NCBI GenBank assembly: GCA_030446805.1
Contig: JAUJMO010000002.1
Location: forward strand, 1 to 64,000
Origin: Caulobacteraceae bacterium
GTDB taxonomy: Bacteria; Pseudomonadota; Alphaproteobacteria; Caulobacterales; Caulobacteraceae
DNA length: 64,000 nt
Direction: 5' to 3'
Part shown: positions 30,386-44,785 of the stretch, in pieces
Layout: each line of letters opens with the position of its first letter
Numbering within the stretch: position 1 is the stretch's first letter
The notes under the pieces: model-generated
The model's database searches: none
The model's input: the letters and a program-made list of their open reading frames with translations, nothing else
Told to the model about the DNA's origin: nothing
Translations under genes and position numbers: made by a program

Positions 30386-31402
30386 TCAGAGACGGCGGCG
30401 GCTCAGCAGGGCGCCGGCCGCAGCCGCGCCGGCCACCAGAGCCAGCCCGGCCGTGGTGCGCGGATGGGTCTGGGCCGCGGTGTAGGCGCTGAACTTGCGC
30501 ACAAAGCGGTGGTCGCTGCGCTCCTGCCCGTCCGGCTCCGGTTGGTAGAGGTTGCCCTGCCGGTCGATCTCATGGCCGGGTCGGCGGTCTTTCTGCAGCT
30601 CGGAGCCGAAGGCGGCGAACAGGGTGTCCGCCCACTCCGGCAGGTATTCCTGGAACAGCTGCTGGCCACGGCCGCCGAAGCCCACCGTCAGGTCGCGCAC
30701 GTCGTGCTGGCAGGCGTAGAGGATGGCGTCGGCGGCCACGTTGGGCGCGTACACGATGGGCGGGATGCGCGCGGGCTGGTCCATGCGGTTGCGCGCGTGG
30801 TCCTTGTAGGGCGTGTCGATCCCCGAGGGCTTGATCAGGCTGACGGACACGGGCAGCCGCATCTGCCGCATCTCGATCCGCAGCGAGTGGGTGAAACCCT
30901 TCACCGCATGCTTGGACGCCACATAGGGCCCCTGTTCCGGAACGGCGAAGTCGGACAACACGCTGCCCAGATTGATGATCTTGCCGCCGTGGGGGCGGCT
31001 GCGCAGGTGCTCCACCGCTTCGAGCGAGCCGTGCACGATGCCCCAGAAATTGGTGTCGAACACCCGGCGCATGTCTTCGACCGGGGTGTCGACGATCTTG
31101 CCGTAAGTCGCGGCGCCGGCGTCGTTGATCCAGGTGTCGAACCCGCCGAACCGGGTGATCGCCGCCTGGGCTATGCTGCGCACGTCCTCCCGGTCGCCCA
31201 CGTCGGCGGCGACGTATTCGACTTCCGTCCCCAAGGCTTCGAGATCGGCCTTGATCGCGGCCAGCGCCTCGGCGTTGCGGGCGGCGAGCACCAGACGGGC
31301 GCCCTTTTCGGCCGCGCGTCGGGCCGTCGACAGCCCGATCCCCGAGCTGCCCCCCGTGATCACGATGACCTGCTGGTCCAGGGGCTTGAGGCGCGGCTTC
31401 AT
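30386..31402 (-). CDS. SDR family oxidoreductase with C-terminal membrane anchor
   Basis: The 338-aa chain has the classical SDR cofactor motif VIVITGGSSGIGLSTARR, DVGDRED, the NDAG motif (here WINDAGAATYG), a catalytic Ser in NLGSVLSD and the YVASKHA Tyr-Lys pair. Beyond the usual 250-residue SDR core there is an extension ending in a hydrophobic segment, AGLALVAGAAAAGALLSRRR, likely to anchor the enzyme in the membrane. Substrate unknown. It sits 27 bp behind otsA on the same strand, so it may be expressed with the trehalose genes and the cupin. Confidence 0.9.
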   Translation of the reverse strand: MKPRLKPLDQQVIVITGGSSGIGLSTARRAAEKGARLVLAARNAEALAAIKADLEALGTEVEYVAADVGDREDVRSIAQAAITRFGGFDTWINDAGAATYGKIVDTPVEDMRRVFDTNFWGIVHGSLEAVEHLRSRPHGGKIINLGSVLSDFAVPEQGPYVASKHAVKGFTHSLRIEMRQMRLPVSVSLIKPSGIDTPYKDHARNRMDQPARIPPIVYAPNVAADAILYACQHDVRDLTVGFGGRGQQLFQEYLPEWADTLFAAFGSELQKDRRPGHEIDRQGNLYQPEPDGQERSDHRFVRKFSAYTAAQTHPRTTAGLALVAGAAAAGALLSRRRL

Positions 31403-31429
31403 GAGGCGTTCCGGGGAAGAGGGCGCCCG

Positions 31430-32836
<1,407 letters not shown>

Positions 32837-32849
32837 CAGAAAAGCTCCA

Positions 32850-34667
32850 TCAGCGCACGGACGACCACGGTCGACTCAGCAGGACCGCGCAGTTGATCAG
32901 GCCTACCAGCGAGTAGGTCTGGGGGTAGTTCCCCCACAAACGGCTGTCGTCGATGCCGATATCCTCGGAAAGCAGGCCAGCATTGGTCCGCCGGGAGAGC
33001 ATCTCCTCGTACAGGCCGCGGGCCTCGTCCGTGCGGCCGGCCAGGTGCAGGGCCTCGATGAACCAGAAGGTGCAGAAGTTGAACGCCGTTTCCGGCTCGC
33101 CGAAATCGTCCGGGTCGGCGTAGCGCATGAGGTAAGGACCTCGGCGGAGCTCGCCCTCGATCGCCTCGAAGGTCGAGCGGAAGCGCGGGTCGTCCGCCGC
33201 CACGAACCGCAGGTCGACCATCTGCAGCAAGGACGCGTCCAGTTCCGTGCCGTCGAAGCTGGCCGCGAAGCGGCCGTGGGCCTCCGTCCACGCATCCCGC
33301 TCGATCCGGGCCCGGACGGTTTCGGCCCGCTCGCGCCAGTGCCGGGCGCGGTCGCCGAGACCCAGCTTCTCCGCCGCATTGCCCAGCCGGTCGCACGCCG
33401 CCCAGCACATCACGGCGCTGTAGGTGTGCACCCGGGCGATGGTGCGAAACTCCCACAGACCGGCGTCCGGCTGATCGTGAAGCGCGAAAGCGCGCTCGCC
33501 CACGGCCTCAAGGGCGCGGAAGTCGTCGGCGGAGGCCGGGCGAAGCAGGCGTTCGTCGAAGAAGGCCTGGACGTTGGACAGGACCACCTGTCCGTACACG
33601 TCGTGCTGCAGGTGTTCGTGGGCCTGGTTGCCCACCCGCACCGGGCCCATGCCGCGAAAGCCGGGCAGGCCCTCTTCGATCCGCTCGCGCAAGGCGGGCT
33701 CATAGCCCACGCCATAGAGCGGCTGGAGGTGGCCGCCGCCCGCCATGTCGATCAGATTGCGCAGGTAGCCGAGGTAGCCTTCCAGGATGTCGACCGCGCC
33801 CAGCCGGTTCAGCGCCTGCACGACATAATAGGCGTCGCGGAGCCAGCAGTAGCGATAGTCCCAGTTGCGGCCGGACCCTGAGAATTCCGGCAGGGAGGTG
33901 GTGAGCGCCGCCACTATGGCCCCCGTCTCCTCATGGACGCAGAGCTTGAGTGCGATGGCGGCGCGGATCACCGCGGCCTGGTAGTCGAGCGGCACGGCCA
34001 GGGTGCGGACCCAGTCACGCCAATAGGCGGCGGTGAGCTCCGCCATGCCGGCGGCGGTCTCGCGCACGTCGCCCACGAAGGGCTCGTCAGGGCCCAGGAA
34101 CATGGCCAGCGGCTCCTCCAGGCGGAACACGCGCTCGTCCAGGATGTGGCCGATCGGGGCGTTGGTGGTGAGCCGCAGCGTGGCGCCCGTGACCATGTAG
34201 CGAATATGATTGGAGCCGGCCGTGCACTCGGCCGCGCGCGCGCCCCAGTCGGCCGTGGGCCGCATGCGGATGCGGATGCGAGGGCTGCCGGCGATCGGTC
34301 GGATCAGGCGCACAAAGGCCAGTGGGCGGTAGGTCCGGCCGGAGCGGCGATGGCGGGGGCAGAAGTCGAGGATCTCGACCGAGGCGCCGCTTTCGGAGGT
34401 CAGTACGGTTCGCAGCACGGCCGTGTTGCGGAGATAGGCCTGCTCGGAGCGGGCGAACCCCTCGAGGTCCACCGACCACAGCCCACGAGCCTGTTCCGCG
34501 GCGGGGTCCACCCCGCCCAACAGGGCGCTGAACACCGGATCGCCGTCCACCCGCGGCGCGCAGGCCCAGACGTAGGCGCCCCGTCGATCCACGAGAGCGC
34601 TGACGGCGCAATTGCCGATCGGGGCCAGATCCAGGTCGCCCCAGCTTTCGTCGGCGGCCAGGCTCAT
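32850..34667 (-). CDS. Glycoside hydrolase family 15 protein (trehalase/glucoamylase-like)
   Basis: The 605-aa protein, started at the ATG at 34665-34667 that overlaps the otsB stop, has an N-terminal beta-sandwich (LAPIGNCAVSALVDRRGAYV) and an (alpha/alpha)6 barrel. GH15 landmarks are GSGRNWDYRYCWLRDAYYV with the general-acid region, and near the end LLSEDIGIDDSRLWGNYPQ, containing the conserved Ser-Glu before the GNYPQ/GNFPQ turn. Bacterial relatives include acid trehalases and glucoamylase-like enzymes. No signal peptide is seen, so it should act in the cytoplasm. Its place between otsB and otsA suggests control of trehalose or maltodextrin levels; the true substrate is uncertain. Confidence 0.92.
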   Translation of the reverse strand: MSLAADESWGDLDLAPIGNCAVSALVDRRGAYVWACAPRVDGDPVFSALLGGVDPAAEQARGLWSVDLEGFARSEQAYLRNTAVLRTVLTSESGASVEILDFCPRHRRSGRTYRPLAFVRLIRPIAGSPRIRIRMRPTADWGARAAECTAGSNHIRYMVTGATLRLTTNAPIGHILDERVFRLEEPLAMFLGPDEPFVGDVRETAAGMAELTAAYWRDWVRTLAVPLDYQAAVIRAAIALKLCVHEETGAIVAALTTSLPEFSGSGRNWDYRYCWLRDAYYVVQALNRLGAVDILEGYLGYLRNLIDMAGGGHLQPLYGVGYEPALRERIEEGLPGFRGMGPVRVGNQAHEHLQHDVYGQVVLSNVQAFFDERLLRPASADDFRALEAVGERAFALHDQPDAGLWEFRTIARVHTYSAVMCWAACDRLGNAAEKLGLGDRARHWRERAETVRARIERDAWTEAHGRFAASFDGTELDASLLQMVDLRFVAADDPRFRSTFEAIEGELRRGPYLMRYADPDDFGEPETAFNFCTFWFIEALHLAGRTDEARGLYEEMLSRRTNAGLLSEDIGIDDSRLWGNYPQTYSLVGLINCAVLLSRPWSSVR

Positions 34668-35410
34668 GCCGCAACCGTTCCCGCCGCCGACCGCGCCAGC
34701 CACCGCCTGACCGCGGAAACGTCCGGAAGGGCGAAGCGTGCGGCGGTGGGGCGCCGGTCCCCGACGATCACGCCGTATCCGCCGAGCGCCGCTGCGGCTT
34801 CGAAGCCGTGCTCGTCGGTCAGGTCGTCGCCGACGAAGACGGGCAGGGCGCCGGTGAAGGGCGGCTCGGCCAGGTAGGCCCGCAGGGCTTCCCCCTTGCC
34901 CCCTCCAGGCGTGCGCAGCTCGAACATCATGGACCCGGGCTGGGCGGTGAGCGGGAGGCGGGCGGCCAATTCACGGCCCAGCTCCAGCACCTCGGCCTCC
35001 AGCCCTGGGGCGGTGCGGTAGTGCAGGCAGACGCCCAGGCCCTTGTCCTCCAGCACCAGTTCGGTGTGGGCCGCTTGAAAGGCCGTAAAGGCCGCGCGCG
35101 CCTCGTCCAGGGCCGGGTGCACGGGAGCGACATGGGCCAGGCCCTGGGCGTCCCGCCGTTCCAGCCCGTGGCTGCCGGACACCGCGAGAACCTCGCCGGA
35201 GAGGATGCGATCCGCGTCCCGGAGCGAGCGGCCGGTCAGCACGGCCAGGCGGCCGTCCAGCGCGCGCTGGAGGTCGGCAAGAAGAGCGGAGCTTTCTGCG
35301 TCGCCCCAGACCAGTTCGGGGCGGGCCTGCAACGGGAACAGCGTCCCGTCCAGGTCGAGAAAGAGCGCCACGTCTGTCAATGGCAGGGATGGCGGCGCGG
35401 GCGGAGGCAT
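34664..35410 (-). CDS. otsB: Trehalose-phosphatase
   Basis: OtsB removes phosphate from trehalose-6-phosphate. The protein (248 aa from the ATG at 35408-35410) is a HAD phosphatase with the nucleophile motif ALFLDLDGTLFPL, LAVLTGRSLRDADRI, the cap-associated GSHGLERR and the metal-binding LPVFVGDDLTDEHGFEAA. All catalytic Asp residues are present. No clear Shine-Dalgarno precedes the chosen ATG. It is first in an operon with GH15 and otsA and is divergent from the FAD/Rieske gene, with 90 bp between the starts. Confidence 0.94.
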   Translation of the reverse strand: MPPPAPPSLPLTDVALFLDLDGTLFPLQARPELVWGDAESSALLADLQRALDGRLAVLTGRSLRDADRILSGEVLAVSGSHGLERRDAQGLAHVAPVHPALDEARAAFTAFQAAHTELVLEDKGLGVCLHYRTAPGLEAEVLELGRELAARLPLTAQPGSMMFELRTPGGGKGEALRAYLAEPPFTGALPVFVGDDLTDEHGFEAAAALGGYGVIVGDRRPTAARFALPDVSAVRRWLARSAAGTVAA

Positions 35411-35500
35411 GTGCGGGGGTGAACGCGGAACCGTGGAGGGAAGGTCCGGCTTACAGCCGAACCGGACGGCTCCGTCCAGTCGCTCAGATAAGGACCGCCC

Positions 35501-37030
35501 GTGAACGCCGACCAGGAACAGAGCCGCTCCGTCTGGCTCGATGACGCGGAGCCCGCCGCCCGCCCCCCGCTGGCCGGCCCGGTCGAGGCGGAGGTGGTGG
35601 TGATCGGCGCCGGGATCGCCGGGCTCTCGGTCGCCTATGAGCTGCAGCGGAGCGGCCGCAGCGTGGTGGTGCTGGACCGCGCCCGCGTCGGGGGCGGCAT
35701 GACGGCGCGCTCGAGCGGCCACCTCAGTTTCGAGCCCGACGACTTCTACGAGACCCTGGTGCGGCAGCACGGACCGGACGGGGCGCGAGCCTACCGCGCG
35801 AGCCAGTCGGCGGCGCTGGACCGGATCGAGGCCATCGTCCGGGAGGAGGGGATCGACTGCGACTTCGCCCGGGTGGACGGCTACCTAATCTCAGCCTCCG
35901 TGGACGACAACGAGCGCATGGACCGCGAGCACGCGGCCGCACGCGGGGCGGGGCTGCTCGGCGTGGACTTCGTCAACGAAGCTCCGCTGAAGGGGGTCGA
36001 CACCGGGGCGGCGCTCCGCTTCCCGAACCAGGCGCGGTTCCACCCGCTAAGATATGTGCTGGGCTTGGCGACAGCCTTTGAGCGGGCGGGCGGTCGCATC
36101 TTCGGCGACACGGCGGTGACGGAGGTGAGCGCGGCGGCCGGCGGCGGGTTGGAGATCGCGCTGGAGAGCGGGGGGGTGTTGCGGGCCGCTCAGGCGGTCT
36201 CGGCGACCCATGGCCCCGTAGGCGTGGCGCCGGCTTTTCACGGGAGGCAGGTCCCTTACCGCACCTATCTGATCGCCGCCGAGATCGCTCGCGGCGAGGC
36301 CGCGGACGTCCTGCTGTGGGACAGCGCCCGCCCCTACACCTACGTCCGGCTGCAGCCCCGAGGCGACCGCGACCTCCTGATCGTCGGCGGGCAGGATCAT
36401 CGGAGCGGGACGGCCGATCAGGCCGAGACGCGCTTCGAGGCGCTGCATGCCTGGGCGCGCTCGCACTACCCCGAGCTGGGCGGGATGACCCACCGGTGGT
36501 CGGGCCTGGTGTACGAGACGGCCGACTTCGTTCCCCTCATTGGAGCGGCGCCGGGCGTGGAAGGCCTGTTCCTCGTCACCGGAGCCAGCGGCGAGGAGGC
36601 CACCACGGCGGCGGCGGCCGGCCTTATCCTGCCCGACCTGATGAGCGGGCGTGAGCACGGGTGGGCCGCCATCTACGACCCGTCGCGCACCAGCTCGGCG
36701 CCGGCGGCCATGGCGGAGTTCGTGAAGGAGCAGGCCGGCGCGGTTGGCCGCTTCGTGGAGTTGCTGACCCCTGGCGAGGTGAAGACCGCCGACGACATCG
36801 AGCCCGGCGCGGGCGCGGTGGTCCGGGTGGGTCTCTCCAAGGTGGCGGCCTATCGCGACCCCGAAGGAAGGCTGCACCAGCATTCCGCCGCCTGCAGCCT
36901 GGCCGGCTGCCTCGTCCGCTTCAACCCTTGGGAGCGCTGCTGGGACTGCCCCTGCCACGGCTGCCAGTACGGGGTGGACGGCGGGGTGCTGGCCGGACCG
37001 GCGACCAAACCGCTGGAGGCCGTGGATTAG
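35501..37030 (+). CDS. FAD-dependent oxidoreductase with atypical C-terminal Rieske domain
   Basis: The 509-aa protein joins a DAO-type flavin domain (VVVIGAGIAGLSVAYELQ, residues 32-49; FAD-end motif near FLVTGASGEEATT) to a C-terminal Rieske-like domain. In a normal Rieske the 2Fe-2S cluster is held by CxH and CxxH. Here the second motif is intact (Cys483, His486), but the first reads Cys465-Ser-Leu467, so the first His ligand is missing. The disulfide cysteines Cys470 and Cys485 are kept, and two extra cysteines appear at 480 and 488, where Ser is usual. The cluster may therefore be ligated differently or lost. Relatives (YhfW-like, glycine/glucose oxidoreductase-like) are soluble. The substrate is unknown. 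Confidence 0.9.
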   Translation: MNADQEQSRSVWLDDAEPAARPPLAGPVEAEVVVIGAGIAGLSVAYELQRSGRSVVVLDRARVGGGMTARSSGHLSFEPDDFYETLVRQHGPDGARAYRASQSAALDRIEAIVREEGIDCDFARVDGYLISASVDDNERMDREHAAARGAGLLGVDFVNEAPLKGVDTGAALRFPNQARFHPLRYVLGLATAFERAGGRIFGDTAVTEVSAAAGGGLEIALESGGVLRAAQAVSATHGPVGVAPAFHGRQVPYRTYLIAAEIARGEAADVLLWDSARPYTYVRLQPRGDRDLLIVGGQDHRSGTADQAETRFEALHAWARSHYPELGGMTHRWSGLVYETADFVPLIGAAPGVEGLFLVTGASGEEATTAAAAGLILPDLMSGREHGWAAIYDPSRTSSAPAAMAEFVKEQAGAVGRFVELLTPGEVKTADDIEPGAGAVVRVGLSKVAAYRDPEGRLHQHSAACSLAGCLVRFNPWERCWDCPCHGCQYGVDGGVLAGPATKPLEAVD

Positions 37031-37038
37031 GCGGGTCC

Positions 37039-37066
37039 CTCCCCCATGCTCTTCGGCATGGGGGAG
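37039..37066. terminator. Bidirectional terminator
   Basis: A perfect 11-bp stem CTCCCCCATGC / GCATGGGGGAG (37039-37049, 37056-37066) with a 6-nt TCTTCG loop lies in the 45-bp gap between convergent genes. Confidence 0.7.
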
Positions 37067-37075
37067 GAGCGGTGT

Positions 37076-37576
37076 TTAGAGCTGGATCTTCTCGTGCACG
37101 CCCGGATCGGGCGTGGACTGGGTCAGGTTGGCTTTGAGCACGCCCAGTCCGTAGCGGATCAGGCCCTTGTCGTTGATCCACACCTCCGCTTCGCTGGGCG
37201 TGAACTTGAGCATGGTCAGGTCGGGATCATCCTTGCCCTTCTCGAACCAGGCCTTGGCCTGGGCGTCCCAGAACTTGTCGATATGCTCCTGGCTGTGGTT
37301 GCGCGACAACGTGCCCATCACGCAGGCCCAGACCTGCCGGTCCTTGTCCACGAAATGGAACATGGCCGCCTCGCTCTTGCCGTCGGCCAGCGGCCCGGCC
37401 AGCTTGTTGTGGGCGTAGGAGTAGAACCACAGGGTGTGGGTCTCCTCCTCATGATAGGAGTTCATCGGCTGGAAATGGCCGGCGTCCGGTCCGGTCAGGC
37501 CCAGCATGCCGATACGGTCGTCGCCGATGGCCTTCCACATGCGCTCTTCGACCTGGGCGTGATCCATCTCGGCCAT
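37076..37576 (-). CDS. Pyridoxamine 5'-phosphate oxidase family protein (general stress protein 26-like)
   Basis: The protein (166 aa) is placed at the ATG at 37574-37576, which has AACAGGAGC upstream; a longer frame reaches 37618. It is a split-barrel flavin-binding fold: ERMWKAIGDDRIGMLGLTG, then HFQPMNSYHEEETHTLWFYS, DGKSEAAMFHFVDKDRQVW and a C-terminal PSEAEVWIN segment. This pattern is typical of the GSP26-like branch that binds FMN or related flavins, rather than of PdxH. The role is likely in stress response, not in vitamin B6 synthesis. Confidence 0.87.
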   Translation of the reverse strand: MAEMDHAQVEERMWKAIGDDRIGMLGLTGPDAGHFQPMNSYHEEETHTLWFYSYAHNKLAGPLADGKSEAAMFHFVDKDRQVWACVMGTLSRNHSQEHIDKFWDAQAKAWFEKGKDDPDLTMLKFTPSEAEVWINDKGLIRYGLGVLKANLTQSTPDPGVHEKIQL

Positions 37577-37779
37577 CGGGGGCTCCTGTTGTGCGGTTCG
37601 GTGGGGTGAACCCGCCACCCCTGGGGCGGTTCCTCCGGCCCGCGTCCCCGCCCGTTGAAGACCGTCCCACTCTTGAACGGGGGAGGAGCACGGTCACCAG
37701 TTCGCAAGTCTCCCACGCCTGATCGTGGGCCGCGTCGCGGACGAGGGGTTTGGCCTTCGGTCGGCACGGCCCTAAAGAG

Positions 37780-37794
37780 CCGGAACCTTTCCGG
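37780..37794 (+). promoter_or_regulatory. Palindrome next to the ribosome site of the SDR gene
   Basis: CCGGAA (37780-37785) and TTCCGG (37789-37794) form a perfect inverted repeat around CCT. The right arm touches the Shine-Dalgarno GGAGG (37793-37797) of the SDR gene that starts at 37802, so the palindrome could be an operator or a hairpin that limits translation. Apart from this I see nothing in the divergent gap 37577-37801. Confidence 0.3.
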
Positions 37795-37801
37795 AGGCGC
37801 G

Positions 37802-38737
37802 ATGTCTCGTTCGGCGACTTGGACACCAGCCGCCATCCCCTCGCAAGCCGGCCGCCTGGCCGTGGTCACGGGCGCCAACAGCGGCCTGGGCTTTCACACC
37901 ACCCTGGGGCTGGCGCGGGCGGGCGCCGAAGTGGTCCTGGCGGTGCGCGACGTGAACAAGGGACTGGCTGCGGCCGACGCCGTCCGACGGGAGATCCCGC
38001 GGGCACGGTTGTCGGTCGAGCGTCTGGACGTGGCGGTGCTGGACAGCGTGCGCGCCTTCGCCGAGCGCTGGGGCGGGCGGCCGCTGCACCTGCTGGTCGC
38101 GAATGCGGGCGTGATGGCCGTGCCCGTGCGCCGAACCACGCCCGACGGGTTCGAGCTCCAGTTCGCGACCAACTTTCTGGGGCATTTCGCGCTGGGCGCG
38201 CGGATGCTGCCCTGTCTGCGGGCCGCCTCGGGCGGCCGGCTGGTGACGCTGTCCAGCTTGGCCCATCTGAGCGGGCGGATCGCTTTCGGCGACCTGCAGG
38301 CGGAGCGCGGCTATCGGCCGTGGAAGGCCTACGGACAGTCCAAGCTGGCGATGCTGATGTGGGCGCTGGAGCTGGAGCGACGGAGCGCACGCGAGGGCTG
38401 GGGCCTGACCGCGCTCTCCGCCCACCCGGGCTATGCGCGCACCGAGCTGATGAAGACCGGCCCCAACCTCGGAAAGCCCATGCCGACCCTGGCGCGGCGT
38501 GCGGTGCGTTGGATGGAACCGCTGATCAGCCAGTCGGCTGGCGACGGCGCCTTGCCGGTGCTGCGCGCCGCGACCGATCCCACGGCGCAAGGCGGCAGCT
38601 ATTGGGGGCCGGCCGGCTTCATGGAACTGACCGGCCCGCCCGAGCCGGCCAGGATCGCGGCGCATGCGCGTGACGAAGCGGCGGCGCGGCGGCTCTGGGA
38701 CGAGGCCGAACGGCTGGCGGGCGTGCGCTGGGGCTGA
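37802..38737 (+). CDS. SDR family NAD(P)-dependent oxidoreductase (retinol dehydrogenase-like)
   Basis: The 311-aa protein begins at an ATG with a GGAGG ribosome site. It contains RLAVVTGANSGLGFHTTLGL (cofactor site), LVANAGVMAVPVRRT, the catalytic Ser region LVTLSSLAHLSGRI and the active-site pair in AYGQSKLAMLM, and then SAHPGYARTELM. The NANAGVM and HPGYxRT segments are characteristic of the retinol-dehydrogenase / protochlorophyllide-reductase-like branch. Substrate unknown. A relic acyl-CoA dehydrogenase gene runs towards its 3' end. Confidence 0.9.
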   Translation: MSRSATWTPAAIPSQAGRLAVVTGANSGLGFHTTLGLARAGAEVVLAVRDVNKGLAAADAVRREIPRARLSVERLDVAVLDSVRAFAERWGGRPLHLLVANAGVMAVPVRRTTPDGFELQFATNFLGHFALGARMLPCLRAASGGRLVTLSSLAHLSGRIAFGDLQAERGYRPWKAYGQSKLAMLMWALELERRSAREGWGLTALSAHPGYARTELMKTGPNLGKPMPTLARRAVRWMEPLISQSAGDGALPVLRAATDPTAQGGSYWGPAGFMELTGPPEPARIAAHARDEAAARRLWDEAERLAGVRWG

Positions 38738-38744
38738 ACCCTGG

Positions 38745-39215
38745 GTCTGGTTCAGCAGGCCCAGCCCGCGCGCCGACGACACCCAGGTCCTGTGCGCGGG
38801 TCTGTGGGGCCGCCAGTCCGACCCGGCGACGGGCTCGCAACACCCTTGGCGTCACCGGATCAGGCCGCGGGCATCCGGGGCGGAGGGTCCCGTGCCTGTT
38901 CTTCGCGGGCCTATCCCAGCAGCACCGGCCCACATCCACACGCCGCGGCAGACCAGGGCGCACGCCTCCCGGGGAGCACGGTTCGGGCTTCCGCCCGGCT
39001 GAGCCCGCCGCCATAGGCCGGCGGCCGAACAGGCCCGTCCAGCCCCGGCCGGCCATGCGCTCCAGCCAGAGGCGGACCTCGTCTGAGGCGAAGCGCGCTT
39101 TGCGTCCGCGCCAGACGACCTCGCTTCCGCCCGCCGGCATACATGGAGAGACGGGCGGTTCGCCTCCGCCGATCCCGGGCCCCCGGCGGAAGGTCTGGAG
39201 GTCGGACGCGGTCAT
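38745..39215 (-). pseudogene. Relic of an acyl-CoA dehydrogenase gene (N-terminal part, several frameshifts)
   Basis: The minus strand from the ATG at 39213-39215 gives MTASDLQTFR, then after frame changes SEVVWRGRKARFASDEVRLW and LERMAGRGWT, the typical N-terminus of a bacterial acyl-CoA dehydrogenase. A second frame continues with PPAYGGGLSRAEARTVL, matching the conserved YGGGGLS region, and GPVLLG; a third gives AREEQARDPPPRM, matching the EEQKxRxLP segment; another shows RTWVSSARG, matching the GQKTWxS strand. The order is exactly that of the family, but at least four frame changes and a stop break it. Everything beyond about residue 165 is missing where the neighbouring SDR gene ends. 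Confidence 0.78.
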
Positions 39216-39259
39216 GCCTCGAAACATGCGCGCGGGCGGACAGGGGCGGCGAGCCGGTC

Positions 39260-39463
39260 CTAGCGGCCCGTCCGAACCCCCAGCAGATTGACCAGGTGAA
39301 CCAGGAGCAGCATGGCTCCGGCCGCGCTCAGCAGCATCAGGAAACGCCAGGGCGCCAGGCGGGGTCCTCGGTGGAGATCGGGCGGACGGGCGCCCCGCCA
39401 CCCGCAAAAGAGGGTCAGCCCAAGCGTGGCCGCCAAGAGCGACAGCGTCACGACCAGCGACAC
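39260..39463 (-). CDS. Small membrane protein (67 aa)
   Basis: The short protein has two hydrophobic helices (about residues 3-21 and 42-60) joined by a basic loop GWRGARPPDLHRGPRL, and a short cytoplasmic tail. The start is a GTG with GCGAGG upstream. No characterised family is recognised. It is divergent from podJ and shares its upstream region, so the CtrA box just beyond its start could affect both genes. Confidence 0.65.
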   Translation of the reverse strand: MSLVVTLSLLAATLGLTLFCGWRGARPPDLHRGPRLAPWRFLMLLSAAGAMLLLVHLVNLLGVRTGR

Positions 39464-39490
39464 AATGGACCTCGCAACACGGCGTTAACT

Positions 39491-39506
39491 TTAACCTCTC
39501 GTTAAC
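39491..39506. promoter_or_regulatory. Perfect CtrA binding box upstream of podJ
   Basis: TTAAC-N6-TTAAC (39491-39495 and 39502-39506) is an exact match to the CtrA consensus; another TTAA half-site lies at 39485-39488. In Caulobacter, CtrA lowers podJ transcription. The box lies 138 bp before the podJ start and 28 bp before the divergent small membrane gene. Confidence 0.8.
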
Positions 39507-39539
39507 CCTTTCGGCCGACTACGGAAGGAAGGGCCGACT

Positions 39540-39548
39540 TTGTCCACA
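39540..39548 (+). promoter_or_regulatory. DnaA-box-like 9-mer upstream of podJ
   Basis: TTGTCCACA differs from the DnaA-box consensus TTATCCACA at one position. podJ is a known DnaA target in Caulobacter, and the site lies between the CtrA box and the gene. Confidence 0.5.
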
Positions 39549-39599
39549 GAAGATGGGCGACCCGCAATATCTTGGGGTGCGACCTGCTTTTCACCCCAC

Positions 39600-39642
39600 G
39601 AGTCGACGGGTAGCGTCTGAGTAGGACCGGGGAGCATGATTC
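39600..39642. promoter_or_regulatory. Two GANTC (CcrM methylation) sites before podJ
   Basis: GAGTC at 39600-39604 and GATTC at 39638-39642 are CcrM sites; the second ends one base before the start codon. Such sites near promoters usually mark GcrA/CcrM-dependent cell-cycle genes. Confidence 0.55.
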
Positions 39643-39643
39643 G

Positions 39644-42600
39644 ATGAGCGCGAACGCGCCGTGGAGCGTGAAGGGGATCGACCCCCAAGCGCGCGAGATC
39701 GCCAAGGATCTTGCACGACGCTCGGGCCAGACCCTGGGCGAGTGGATCAACTCCATGATCATCGAGGGCGGCAAGGGTGAAGCCCCGCCGCCCGCCGCCC
39801 GCCTCGAGCCTGAGCCGGGCCGCATCTCCGCGCGCGAGGATCGCCGCCCGGAGCGTGAGGCGCCCCGAGATCGGGAATATGCCCGAGAGCCGGCCTACGC
39901 CGACCAGCGCGACGCCTTTTTCGACGAGTACCGGCAGCCGGAGCCGGAGCGCTATGCCGAACCGAGAAGCCGCCGGGCGACCGCGGGGCTGTACCCCGAG
40001 GCGCCCCGGGCGGCGCCCCCGGCCCGCTCGCGCTTCGATTTCGAGGATCTGGGCGTTGACGAGCTGACGCGGTTGGCGCGTGCGGTTGAGCGGTTGGGCT
40101 CGCGGGTCGAGCAGGCCGACGGCCGCACCACCATGGCGGTGACCAGCGTGGACCAGGCCGTGGCCGGGGTGCTCAGCCGGCTGGAGATGGTCGAGCGCGA
40201 CCAGAGCGCGGTGGTCTCCCGTCTCGAGTCTGCGGTCGAGGACCGCCTGCGCCGCCTGGAGGAGAACGAGGGCGGCTCACGTCAACTGGAGGCCGTGCGG
40301 CAGCTGGAGAGCGCGCTGGGCAAGGTGGCCCTGCAGCTTTTCGAGGGGGAGCAGCGGACCTCGGCCGCGGTGGCGGATCTGCGTCATGGTCTCAAGGACG
40401 TGGATTCCCGGATCGAGCGCGTGGCCGGCGAGATCCAGGCCGATGTCCGCGAAAGTCTCAGTGAGAGCGAGGCCCGCGTCCGCGCCGCGCTTAACGAGAT
40501 CCGCGAGGAGGGCAAAAGTGCGGAGCACCGCGCCCGCGCCGCCTTCGCCGTGCTGCGGGAGGAGATCAACGAAGGGGACAACCGCGCCCGCGCCGCGGCC
40601 GAGGCGCTGCAGGTCCAGATCGAGGTCAATGAAACGGGGGCTCGCGCCGCCCTGGAGCAGGTCCGCGCCGAGCTGCACCAGCAGCTGGAGCGTGAGGCGG
40701 CCGGGACGCAGAACACCCTGGGCGAGTTCCGGGGCGAGCTCGGCGAGATCGAGACCCGGACCCGCCGTACGGTGGACGACCTCAAGAACCGGGTGGAGCG
40801 GGCCGAGCAGCGCGCCGCTGCAGCCCCGCTCCTGCCGCCGCGGCCCCAGCCGGAGCCGGGCGTTCTGGTGGAGCAGGTGGTCGCCCGTGTGGCCGAGCGG
40901 CTGGAGCGAGCCGAGGACAAGACGGGCGAAGCCTTGCGCTCGCTCGAAAGCTCCTTCGCCGCCCTGGACCGGCGGCTGCAGGCGGCCGAAGGCCAGCTGG
41001 ATCCCAGGGCCGCCGCCGCTCTGGAGGAGCAGGTCGGCGCCCGCTTTGAAAGCCTCGCCGCCGAGCTGACCAGTCAGATGGAGGCGGCGCGCCATGAGAT
41101 GGCGGACCGTCTGACGGATGTCGCCGACAATCGTCGGCTTGACGAGATGGAAGCCGCGCTTCGCGACCTGCAGCGTCACGCCGAGGCGGCCGAACGGCGC
41201 CAAAGCGACGCTATCGAGCGCATGGGCCGCGAGGTCATGCGCGTCACCGAGGCGCTCAACGCCCGCGTGGCGGGGGTCGAGGTCCAAACGGGCGAAACGG
41301 TGGCCCGCCTCAGCGAGCAGCTCGGCGCCCGTCTGCTGGAAGTGGAGACCGGGACGGACCGCGCCGTGGCCGAAACGGTTCAGAAGCTCGACACCCGCGT
41401 GGGCGCCCTGGAGACCCAGACGGGCGAGATCGTCTCGCGCGCCGCCGAGGCGCTGACCTCGCGGCTGGCCGGCGCCGAGGTCCAGTTCGGGCAGGCCGCC
41501 GAGGCGCTGGGCGCCCGGGTCGCCGCTGTCGAAACCCAGGTCGGCCAGACGGTGACGGAGGCGACCGAGACCCTCGGGTCCCGCGTCGCCGCCGTGGAGG
41601 CCAAGGCCGACGAGGCCGTGGCCCGCGCCGCCGAGGCCCTGACCTCGCGAGTCGCCGGTGTCGAGGCTCAGGTCGAGCAGGTTGCGGAGGCGCTGGGCGC
41701 CCGCGTCGTAGCTGCCGAAACCCAGGTCGGCCAAGCCGTGCTGGAGGCGACCGACCTGCTTGGGTCCCGCGTCGCCGCCGTGGAGTCCAAGGCCGATGAG
41801 GCCGTGGCCCGCGCGTCCGAGGTTCTCACCAGCCGCGTGGCCGAACTGGAGGCCGAGCTGGCCGATCAGGGCCGGCGCACGCTGGAGCAGGTCACGGACG
41901 CCCTGCACGATCGCCTGGCCGGGGCGGAGACCCAGGCGGGCGAGGCTGTGGCGCGCGCCACCGAGGCGCTCACCGCCCGCGTCGAATCCGTCGAGGCCCA
42001 GACCGGCGAAGCCGTGGACCGCGTGATCGGCATCGTCGAAAAGCGCCTGCAGCGCACGGACGAGACCCAGGCCGCCGCCCTAGAGACTCTGGGCGGCGAA
42101 ATGGCCCGCATCTCCGAGCGGCTGGCCGATCGCATCGACAATGCCGAGCGCCGCTCGGCCGAGGCCATCGAAGAGGTCGGGGACAAGGTCGGCGAGGTCA
42201 GCGAGCGGCTGAATCAGCGCTATGAGCGCGCCGCCACCAGCCTGTCCGAGCGCATGCGCGAGAGCGAGGAGCGCCTCGCCCGTGTGCTGGAGGAGACCCG
42301 CGCGCGCCTGGACGCGCGCCTGGCCGAAGCCCAGCGCGGCCTGATGGACACCATCGACCACCGGGTCGGGAGCTCCGAGCGCGGCTTCAGCCAAGCGCTT
42401 GAGTCCCAAGTCGGCGACGTCGCCCAGAGCCTGTCCGGCCGCCTGGACCAGGTCGTCGCCGAGGTCCGCCGCGAGCTCGTCCAGACCGTTGACGCTCGCG
42501 TGGGCGAAACGGAGCGTGGCTTCGTGGAACGGCTGGAGCAGTCGGTCGGAGAAACCCGTCGCGACCTGACCGAGACGCTGGACGCCCGTGTGGGCGAGAC

Positions 42601-44785
42601 CGAGCGCGAACTGGCCGTTCGTTTGGAGCGCACCGCCTGGGAGCAGCGAGGGCTGGTCGAGGCGCTGGACGCCAAGGTCGGCGAAACCGAACGCGGGTTC
42701 GCCGATCGCCTGGAGCAGACGGTGGGGGAGACCCGCCGCGAACTGGAGCAAGTCGTCGGCGCGCGGCTCGGCCAGACGGAGCGCGAGCTGGCCAGTCGGC
42801 TTTCCGAGACGATCGAGCAGACCGAGCGTGACTGGTCCCAGTCGCTGCAAGCCGCCGTGGCGGAGCCTCGCAGCGTCATCGCCGATCTCGAGCAGCGGCT
42901 GGACCAGACGGAGCGCGACGCCTCCGACCGGCTGCAGAGCTCGCTGGCCCAACTCGTCTCGCGGGTGGACCAGGTTTCTGTGGAGGCGCTGGACGAGTTC
43001 AAGTCCGATCCGGCCGACCTGGCCCTGCCGGAGACCGGCCTGCAGGCCCAGGCTGGCGCGGTGGACACCATCCCCGCTGGAGCCGAGGAGGACGACGACC
43101 TCCAACCCTTCTCGGCCTTCGCAACGGCGGACGGGTTCCGTCACGCCCCGCTGGAGCTGGACGATCCCTTCGTTCCGGCGGCCATCGCGCCGGTGGTGAC
43201 CACCGTTCTGGCGGAAGTCGCCGAGCCCGAGCAGCCGGTCGTCTATGCGGCGCCGGCGGTTGAACCAGCTCCGGCTGAACCCGCCCCGGCTGAACCCGCT
43301 CCGGCTGAACCCGCTCCGGTCGAAGCCGCGGCGGCCGACCCGGCCCCCACCCCGGCGAGCCTCATGGACGAGGGTTACGGCGCCGACTTCGACGTGGACG
43401 ACGAGTTCGTGACGGCCACGCCGGCTCCCGCCCTCGCCGCCGCTCCGCCGGTCGAGCTCCCGGTCCAGGGGACGCCCGCGGAGGAGTGGAGCTTCGACGT
43501 CGAGCCCACGCAAGCGGCCGGCCCGGAAGCGGTCGCCTCCGAGCCCGCCGCACCGCAGGGCGAAAGCGCCCCCGTAGAGGCCGCCGCGAGCCTGTCGCCC
43601 ACCCGGCGGCTGATCGAGGAGGCCCGGGCCAAGGCCAAGGCCGCCAGCGACGACGGCAAGCCGGCCCGCAAGGGCAAGGTCTCCGCGCTGGACCTGGGAC
43701 CCCCGCCGCCCATGATCGGGCTGCGCGGCTCGGGCCTGCGCGCGCCCAATGTAGGCGGTTTCCTGGGCCGCCTGGGCAAGAAGAAGGAGGACAAGGACGC
43801 CTCCACCGTGCGCACCACGGCGCTCGTGGCGGGGGTCAGCTTCGCCGCCAGCGCCATGTTCGCAGGCACCTGGCTACTGAACGAGAAGGGCGACGGGGCC
43901 GAAGCGGAGACCTCCGCCAAGGTCGCGGCCGGACCCGCCGCCTCGTCCCAGGGTGCGACGCCCCTGGCCGCCTCCCTGGTGGTGACCAGCCCCAACGCCA
44001 CGGCGGCGGCCGTGGCCCCGCCCACGCCCAACCCGGACGGGCCCCTGCTCTATGCGGGCGCGGTACGCGCCTTTCAGGCCGGCCAGAACGAAGCGGGCCA
44101 GCGCGACCTCCGCATCGCGGCGGAGGGCGGTCATCCGCCCGCCCAGCTCTACCTCGCCACCCTGTACAGCGAAGGCCGGGGCGGGCTGCAACGCGACCCG
44201 GTGCAGGCGCGCCGCTGGACGGCCAGCGCCGCGGCGCTGGGCAATCGGACGGCCATGCACAACCTGGCCATGTCCTTCGTGGAAGGAGAGGGCGGCGCCA
44301 CCGATTACGCAGCGGCGGCCCAGTGGTTCCGGCGTGCGGCCGACCTTGGCCTGACGGACAGCCAGTACAACCTCGGCTACCTGTTCGAGCAGGGCCGGGG
44401 CGTGCCCCCCGACCCGACCGAAGCCTACAAGTGGTATCTGATCGCGGCCCGCCTGGGCGGCGACGCCGAGGCCCGCTCGAGCGCGGAGCGGCTGCGGTCC
44501 ACGCTGACGCCTGTGGCCCAGGCCACGGCCGAACGCACCGCCCTGGCTTTCCGTCCGGCGGCGACGCCGATTCCGGCCGCCGCGCCCGCGACGACGGTGC
44601 AGCCCCAACTGGCGGCGGCGCAGCAAGCGCTGTCACGGTTGGGCTACTATCGCGGTCCGTCGGACGGCGTGCCCTCGCCTGCGCTCAGTCGCGCCATCGC
44701 GGCCTGGCAGAGCAGCGCCGGCCTGGAGCCCACGGGAGCCGTCACGGGCGACACGCTGCAGCGGCTGCAGTCGGCGGCCGGCTAG
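39644..44785 (+). CDS. podJ: PodJ-type cell-pole localisation factor (1713 aa)
   Basis: PodJ marks the new cell pole and recruits polar proteins in Caulobacter. The chain has a short cytoplasmic start SVKGIDPQAREIAKDLARRS, a Pro/Arg-rich linker, about 950 residues of coiled coil (roughly 150-1110) with internal repeats, a Pro/Ala/Glu-rich tract (about 1206-1236), one membrane helix near 1391-1411 (LVAGVSFAASAMFAGTWLL), Sel1 repeats (for example AQLYLATLYSEGRGG and AMHNLAMSFVEGEGG) and a C-terminal peptidoglycan-binding domain (LSRLGYYRGPSDG). That order is diagnostic of PodJ, but Caulobacter PodJ is about 970 residues, so the cytoplasmic coiled coil is greatly extended. GGGGAG precedes the ATG. 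CtrA, DnaA and CcrM sites lie upstream. Confidence 0.9.
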   Translation: MSANAPWSVKGIDPQAREIAKDLARRSGQTLGEWINSMIIEGGKGEAPPPAARLEPEPGRISAREDRRPEREAPRDREYAREPAYADQRDAFFDEYRQPEPERYAEPRSRRATAGLYPEAPRAAPPARSRFDFEDLGVDELTRLARAVERLGSRVEQADGRTTMAVTSVDQAVAGVLSRLEMVERDQSAVVSRLESAVEDRLRRLEENEGGSRQLEAVRQLESALGKVALQLFEGEQRTSAAVADLRHGLKDVDSRIERVAGEIQADVRESLSESEARVRAALNEIREEGKSAEHRARAAFAVLREEINEGDNRARAAAEALQVQIEVNETGARAALEQVRAELHQQLEREAAGTQNTLGEFRGELGEIETRTRRTVDDLKNRVERAEQRAAAAPLLPPRPQPEPGVLVEQVVARVAERLERAEDKTGEALRSLESSFAALDRRLQAAEGQLDPRAAAALEEQVGARFESLAAELTSQMEAARHEMADRLTDVADNRRLDEMEAALRDLQRHAEAAERRQSDAIERMGREVMRVTEALNARVAGVEVQTGETVARLSEQLGARLLEVETGTDRAVAETVQKLDTRVGALETQTGEIVSRAAEALTSRLAGAEVQFGQAAEALGARVAAVETQVGQTVTEATETLGSRVAAVEAKADEAVARAAEALTSRVAGVEAQVEQVAEALGARVVAAETQVGQAVLEATDLLGSRVAAVESKADEAVARASEVLTSRVAELEAELADQGRRTLEQVTDALHDRLAGAETQAGEAVARATEALTARVESVEAQTGEAVDRVIGIVEKRLQRTDETQAAALETLGGEMARISERLADRIDNAERRSAEAIEEVGDKVGEVSERLNQRYERAATSLSERMRESEERLARVLEETRARLDARLAEAQRGLMDTIDHRVGSSERGFSQALESQVGDVAQSLSGRLDQVVAEVRRELVQTVDARVGETERGFVERLEQSVGETRRDLTETLDARVGETERELAVRLERTAWEQRGLVEALDAKVGETERGFADRLEQTVGETRRELEQVVGARLGQTERELASRLSETIEQTERDWSQSLQAAVAEPRSVIADLEQRLDQTERDASDRLQSSLAQLVSRVDQVSVEALDEFKSDPADLALPETGLQAQAGAVDTIPAGAEEDDDLQPFSAFATADGFRHAPLELDDPFVPAAIAPVVTTVLAEVAEPEQPVVYAAPAVEPAPAEPAPAEPAPAEPAPVEAAAADPAPTPASLMDEGYGADFDVDDEFVTATPAPALAAAPPVELPVQGTPAEEWSFDVEPTQAAGPEAVASEPAAPQGESAPVEAAASLSPTRRLIEEARAKAKAASDDGKPARKGKVSALDLGPPPPMIGLRGSGLRAPNVGGFLGRLGKKKEDKDASTVRTTALVAGVSFAASAMFAGTWLLNEKGDGAEAETSAKVAAGPAASSQGATPLAASLVVTSPNATAAAVAPPTPNPDGPLLYAGAVRAFQAGQNEAGQRDLRIAAEGGHPPAQLYLATLYSEGRGGLQRDPVQARRWTASAAALGNRTAMHNLAMSFVEGEGGATDYAAAAQWFRRAADLGLTDSQYNLGYLFEQGRGVPPDPTEAYKWYLIAARLGGDAEARSSAERLRSTLTPVAQATAERTALAFRPAATPIPAAAPATTVQPQLAAAQQALSRLGYYRGPSDGVPSPALSRAIAAWQSSAGLEPTGAVTGDTLQRLQSAAG
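41440..41811 (+). repeat. 186-bp internal tandem repeat in podJ
   Basis: Two consecutive units of 62 codons share most of their sequence; for example GAGGCGCTGGGCGCCCG recurs at 41501 and 41687, exactly 186 bp apart, and both encode EALGAR followed by ETQVGQ and GSRVAAVE. A partial third unit begins at about 41812. Later in the gene (42480-42850) a shorter motif, VGETERG, recurs about every 36 or 72 residues. Confidence 0.8.

Follow-up and report, generated by a model that had tools for sequence, protein, structure and literature searches.

A natural YhfW-type flavin-Rieske fusion protein from a Caulobacteraceae bacterium in which the first histidine ligand of the Rieske domain is replaced by leucine

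Introduction

YhfW of Bacillus subtilis is a predicted oxidoreductase in which a DAO domain is combined with a C-terminal Rieske domain; its function is given as unknown, and metabolite changes are described for a yhfW mutant (PMC7317962). In this work, B. subtilis YhfW is likened by this described layout. YhfW-type FAD oxidoreductases share the same two-domain layout from end to end with a protein encoded in the window, i.e., the stretch of 64,000 nucleotides from a Caulobacteraceae bacterium (contig JAUJMO010000002.1, positions 1 to 64,000) analyzed here. The nearest full-length homologues listed, some of which belong to the host's own bacterial family, are 49-51% identical to it.

Exchanges of cluster ligands have been described for ARF, an archaeal Rieske ferredoxin from Sulfolobus solfataricus. 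Replacement of His64 by Cys leads to a low-potential 3Cys-1His cluster, cluster insertion or assembly fails after replacement of His44 by Cys, and the triple variant H44I/K45C/H64C holds a mononuclear, rubredoxin-like Fe(Cys)4 site in the Rieske scaffold (PMC2946596). Judged by its order with Cys42, Cys61, and His64, His44 in that text corresponds to the histidine of the first motif. The ligand altered in these His44 variants would thus be the one lost in the window, although ARF is an engineered ferredoxin and its histidine was changed to Cys or, in the triple variant, to Ile and not to Leu.

Rieske-like domains lacking ligands have already been described for PSB33/LIL8/TEF5 from plants and algae, whose Rieske-like domain is devoid of the ligands (PMC12164590), and for the Rieske-type NirD of Bacillus bataviensis, in which a Cys and a His involved in cluster binding are reported to be substituted (PMC3475470). 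Both are likened here by description, and both differ from the present case: PSB33/LIL8/TEF5 are chloroplast membrane proteins of another family, whereas the window protein retains three of the four ligands, and NirD is a nitrite reductase protein that has lost two ligands, whereas the window protein has lost one. In a literature search that covered few subscription papers, no report of the variant described below was recognised for a YhfW-type protein.

Materials and Methods

Homologues were taken from the host's family, class, and phylum, from genome contigs as well as from plasmids, and the survey read the 80 best among 186 genome loci that had been confirmed, together with 12 of 94 plasmid records; at the cut-off of the order-level search, the window was the only match. 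The main count comprises 65 distinct homologues with a length of 470 amino acyl residues or more. Left out were 55 of the 120 matched loci, i.e., the window's own copy, the duplicates L010 and L036, and 52 loci shorter than 470 residues. Five of these short loci (L037, L039, L041, L069, and L101) have a readable Rieske domain, and in the remaining 47 no Rieske match was convincing. The 21 other members that carry a cysteine at position 480, referred to as the clade, served as reference for invariant columns. Only one other genome of the genus was examined (G017), whose contig (L008) has a coverage of 2.98, so that errors there may inflate dN, and ends at residue 379 of the protein, before the Rieske domain.

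Results

A DAO-Rieske fusion with three of four cluster ligands

The following features belong to the gene and its product.

35501..37030, plus strand: YhfW-type DAO-Rieske fusion gene, open frame (PF01266, 1.3e-50; PF00355, 4.3e-07)
36584..36613, plus strand: C-terminal FAD-type loop, residues 362-371, altered at 362, 366, 367, and 370
36788..37027, plus strand: predicted Rieske domain, residues about 430-509 (PF00355, AF2, Foldseek)
36893..36910, plus strand: loop 1, C465-S-L467-A-G-C470, canonical His changed to Leu
36938..36940, plus strand: Cys480, a group feature, Cys in 21/65 homologues
36947..36964, plus strand: loop 2, C483-P-C485-H486-G-C488, Ser488 changed to Cys

Translation of the 509-residue product starts at a GTG (35501) with AAGGA upstream and ends at a TAG (37028-37030). 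The DAO domain is followed by the Rieske domain, as in YhfW-type proteins, and homology extends over the full length. Residues 427-506 score 30.2 bits with the PF00355 profile, above its curated cut-off of 20.3. AlphaFold2 modeled the Rieske domain alone with a mean pLDDT of 96, and a Foldseek search with this model retrieved Rieske structures, the best being 8hn2 (Chlorobaculum Rieske) with an E value of 5.9e-07. For the full-length model (pLDDT 88), the best structural matches were glycine oxidase and related DAO enzymes. From the predicted model we infer a Rieske fold, which says nothing on metal content, as AlphaFold follows the alignment.

The Rieske stretch reads C465-S-L467-A-G-C470 and, twelve residues further on, with C480 among these, C483-P-C485-H486-G-C488. 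Six cysteines and one histidine thus lie within 24 residues. The first-pass annotation had described C-S-L (Cys465, Leu467) in place of CxH, with the second CxxH (Cys483, His486) and both disulfide cysteines kept, and the codons bear this out: in loop 1, C465 is encoded at 36893-36895, L467 by CTG at 36899-36901, and C470 at 36908-36910, C480 is encoded at 36938-36940, and in loop 2, C483, C485, H486, and C488 are encoded at 36947-36949, 36953-36955, 36956-36958, and 36962-36964, respectively. Of the two ligand pairs of Rieske [2Fe-2S] proteins, CxxH is present as C483-P-C-H486 and CxH is absent (C465-S-L467), so that the canonical 2Cys-2His set is incomplete and three of four ligands are left. 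The other two Rieske matches in the host genome carry CxH...CxxH motifs.

Cluster loops among homologues

Among the loci surveyed, His467 is found in 65/65 homologues of at least 470 residues and Leu in the window alone; likewise, the serine following the second motif, Ser488, is found in 65/65 and Cys in the window alone. Cys465, Cys483, Cys485, and His486 each occur in 65/65 homologues and Cys470 in 64/65, and the five short loci with a readable Rieske domain all show CxH and CHGS. Where read, the codon for His467 is CAT (L009, L026) or CAC (L004, L010). As CTG differs from both by two bases, a single base substitution does not account for Leu467. Homologue L023 reads CPHLGG, i.e., its first disulfide cysteine is changed to Gly with all four ligands present.

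Cys480 and Cys488 had been viewed at first as replacing usual serines and as possibly gained along with the loss of His467. For Cys488 both parts hold, although the coincidence is seen in one protein. For Cys480 neither does, since the residues found at position 480 are T (28 of the 65 homologues), C (21), S (13), V (2), and G (1), and all 21 Cys480 homologues keep His467, as does the short L101. Cys480 is therefore discarded as a compensating ligand that arose with the histidine loss. The Cys480 group (L003-L005, L009, L092-L097, L101, L106-L110, L113, L115, L116, L118-L120) displays the motif CWDCPCHGS, with an extra cysteine three residues ahead of the second cluster cysteine and the four ligands intact. 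A replacement histidine at 459 or 461 is also discarded, as histidines occur there in homologues with His467 (43/65 and 7/65, respectively).

Because position 488 is presumably the one at which a serine is hydrogen-bonded to the cluster of respiratory Rieske proteins, Cys488 should lie near the cluster site, and it is possible in principle that it could ligate the outer iron. A literature search for hydrogen bonds between serine or tyrosine and the cluster gave no match.

At 3 of 26 clade-invariant Rieske columns the window departs (H467L, S488C, and F490Y), all of them in or beside the cluster loops, and each other clade member departs at 0-1. F490Y (36968-36970) adjoins loop 2, and Tyr occurs there in 3/65 homologues.

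General decay of the Rieske domain finds no support in domain identities. Compared with the 21 Cys480 members, the window shows a mean identity of 0.544 in the Rieske and of 0.448 in the DAO domain, a ratio of 1.21 that falls inside the range of the members (1.16-1.27). When the tree was fixed according to the DAO domain, the terminal branch of the window measures 0.743 for DAO and 0.769 for Rieske; the resulting Rieske/DAO ratio of 1.03, compared with 0.89 for the whole tree, is the 6th highest of 25 usable branches, in the upper part yet no outlier.

Changes in the flavin domain

At 9 of 66 clade-invariant DAO columns the window departs as well (T71S, N237H, K249R, T275S, H280T, Q336L, D362A, G366E, and G370A), compared with 0-8 in other clade members. 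Part of these departures is plain divergence, since L120, which is as divergent as the window (mean identity 0.45) and has intact ligands, departs at 8/65 DAO and 0/23 Rieske columns; His at 237 also occurs in 6/65 homologues. The change that stands out is the loss of loop glycines in the segment of residues 362-371, which from the DAO superfamily we take to bind FAD. Here the window reads GASGEEATTA and thus lacks the GDSGxG found in the 21 members of its own clade. Residue 366 is Gly in 65/65 homologues and Glu in the window, and residue 370 is Gly in 62/65. Arthrobacter homologues have a loop without GDSG and keep Gly366. The Rossmann-fold motif GAGIAG is preserved in the window, so FAD may still bind.

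The sister genome and selection on the gene

Next to the DAO-Rieske gene, the following neighbours are encoded.

31430-32836, minus strand: OtsA, trehalose gene
32850-34703, minus strand: GH15, among the trehalose genes
34664..35440, minus strand: trehalose-phosphatase (OtsB) core (PF02358, 1.2e-20, on ORF 34664-35770)
37076..37618, minus strand: pyridoxamine-phosphate-oxidase-like protein (PF16242)

The orthologue in G017 is open up to the contig end, with no stop or frameshift in its 379 residues, and it shares 237H, 280T, 336L, 362A, 366E, 367A, and 370A with the window; the rest of it, i.e., the Rieske part, was sought in that genome and not found. Over 377 aligned codons, window and G017 differ with a dS of 0.120 and a dN of 0.021 (dN/dS 0.18, no stop; Fisher p 2e-9 for synonymous versus nonsynonymous changes), with a 6-base in-frame gap near 36545. 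The corresponding dN/dS values are 0.09 for GH15 and 0.08 for OtsB, and the single stop counted in each of these two genes is taken to be its own terminal stop. Over residues 1-377, the gene is therefore kept by selection, somewhat looser than on its GH15 and OtsB neighbours.

Discussion

The case described here is a natural loss of one of four Rieske ligands; the domain concerned is conserved in other respects and is fused to a flavoprotein, and Cys488, two residues past the other histidine, offers a thiol that might serve as replacement. With this protein one can ask directly whether a natural Rieske scaffold can do without the first histidine, and what activity is left to a YhfW-type protein that has no redox relay.

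The first-pass annotation had left a cluster with different ligands, no cluster, or a structural disulfide domain as options. The altered flavin site and the His44 precedent tip the balance towards a domain without a normal cluster, and the interpretation we lean towards is that of a folded Rieske domain devoid of the normal [2Fe-2S] cluster; the flavoprotein that carries it, and that is kept by selection, would have its ancestral chemistry broken or changed. The Rieske fold, both cysteine ligands, the second histidine, and the disulfide cysteines would have been retained and the first histidine lost, so that a normal 2Cys-2His [2Fe-2S] cluster is most likely no longer held. In ARF, replacement of His44 by Cys blocked cluster assembly, which makes a normal cluster unlikely here as well (PMC2946596). 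With conserved residues of the C-terminal flavin loop lost too, the ancestral route from substrate to FAD, Rieske center, and acceptor would probably be broken or strongly altered. Since purifying selection maintains the gene in both genomes, the protein probably has another job, which might consist in binding, a scaffold function, or flavin-only chemistry. Most likely, then, the original electron-transfer chemistry was lost and the protein retained. If the cluster is simply absent, the protein would be a further example of a Rieske fold retained without its cofactor. Several points speak against this interpretation: one could expect a clusterless domain to have drifted at a clearly higher rate than that of the window, with its branch ratio of 1.03; Leu467 and Cys488 are known from a single source, the one assembly covering the Rieske domain; and the divergence seen in L120, the occurrence of His237 in other homologues, the Arthrobacter loops without GDSG, the preserved GAGIAG, and a dN/dS above that of the neighbours count on the same side.

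Other uses of the remaining ligands are conceivable. In a natural 3Cys-1His [2Fe-2S] cluster, Cys465 and Cys483 would bind the inner iron, and His486 together with Cys488, replacing His467, the outer one. That S488C is seen only in the window among the surveyed homologues, together with H467L, and that the remainder of the Rieske domain is conserved would fit such an arrangement, and the ARF variant H64C shows that a Rieske scaffold can hold such a cluster; however, H44C, at the position lost in the window, assembled none (PMC2946596), and the altered flavin site makes selection for a rewired electron carrier doubtful, so that we regard this cluster as improbable. Improbable, too, is its elaborated form, in which the loss of His467 would have been answered by S488C to give a low-potential cluster with loop 2 holding the outer iron, coupled to the changed flavin site. 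Alternatively, Cys465, Cys470, Cys480, Cys483, Cys485, Cys488, and His486 could make up a mononuclear site for Zn or Fe, or a domain held together by structural disulfides. The crowding of these seven residues within so short a segment is in line with this, as is the mononuclear Fe(Cys)4 site reported for the ARF triple variant (PMC2946596). That variant has a cysteine beside the lost histidine, whereas position 468 of the window is Ala, and Cys480 is present in homologues that keep His467; we consider such a site or domain unlikely.

A slow decay of a gene without a function of its own would explain why conserved residues are lost in both domains and why dN/dS is about twice that of the two neighbour genes. 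It is difficult to reconcile with a dN/dS of 0.18 at a Fisher p of 2e-9, with the absence of stops from the window gene and of stops or frameshifts from the 379 residues in G017, and with a Rieske domain conserved outside its loops, and it seems improbable to us. An error of sequencing or assembly at 36899-36901, hiding a histidine, is conceivable in that one assembly alone covers the Rieske domain and that, compared with CATGCC in L009, a deletion and an insertion three bases apart would yield CTGGCC, a combination considered unlikely. By substitution, two bases would have to change, the reading frame is undisturbed, Ser488 as a further residue invariant elsewhere is altered too, and the flavin-site oddities recur in the second assembly, G017, all of which makes such an error very unlikely.

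With regard to genomic context, a minus-strand run of SDR, OtsA, GH15, and OtsB genes (30386-35770) forms a trehalose synthesis block beside the DAO-Rieske gene, which has two short-chain dehydrogenases among its neighbours. A PF16242 gene lies near the Caulobacter homologue L010 too (L010:8626-9123), and a pyridoxamine-phosphate-oxidase family gene is found in the vicinity of L109. At five of eight annotated plasmid loci (over 11 kb), YhfW-type genes occur near genes for KGG-domain, ferritin-like, or DUF4142 proteins, catalase, universal stress protein, or DNA ligase; a stress setting is only a suggestion, because such neighbours are absent at the other three plasmid loci and at L009. No EcfG-type promoter (GGAAC-N15-18-[CGT]GTT) occurs within 35201-35560. 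The sole EcfG-like match within 32001-40000, counted without a chance control, is at 37609-37633 on the minus strand, where it overlaps the start of the PF16242 gene. Further along the window, 39644-44785 encodes a protein of 1713 residues in which Sel1 repeats are combined with a peptidoglycan-binding domain, and which we take to resemble a PodJ-type polar localisation factor.
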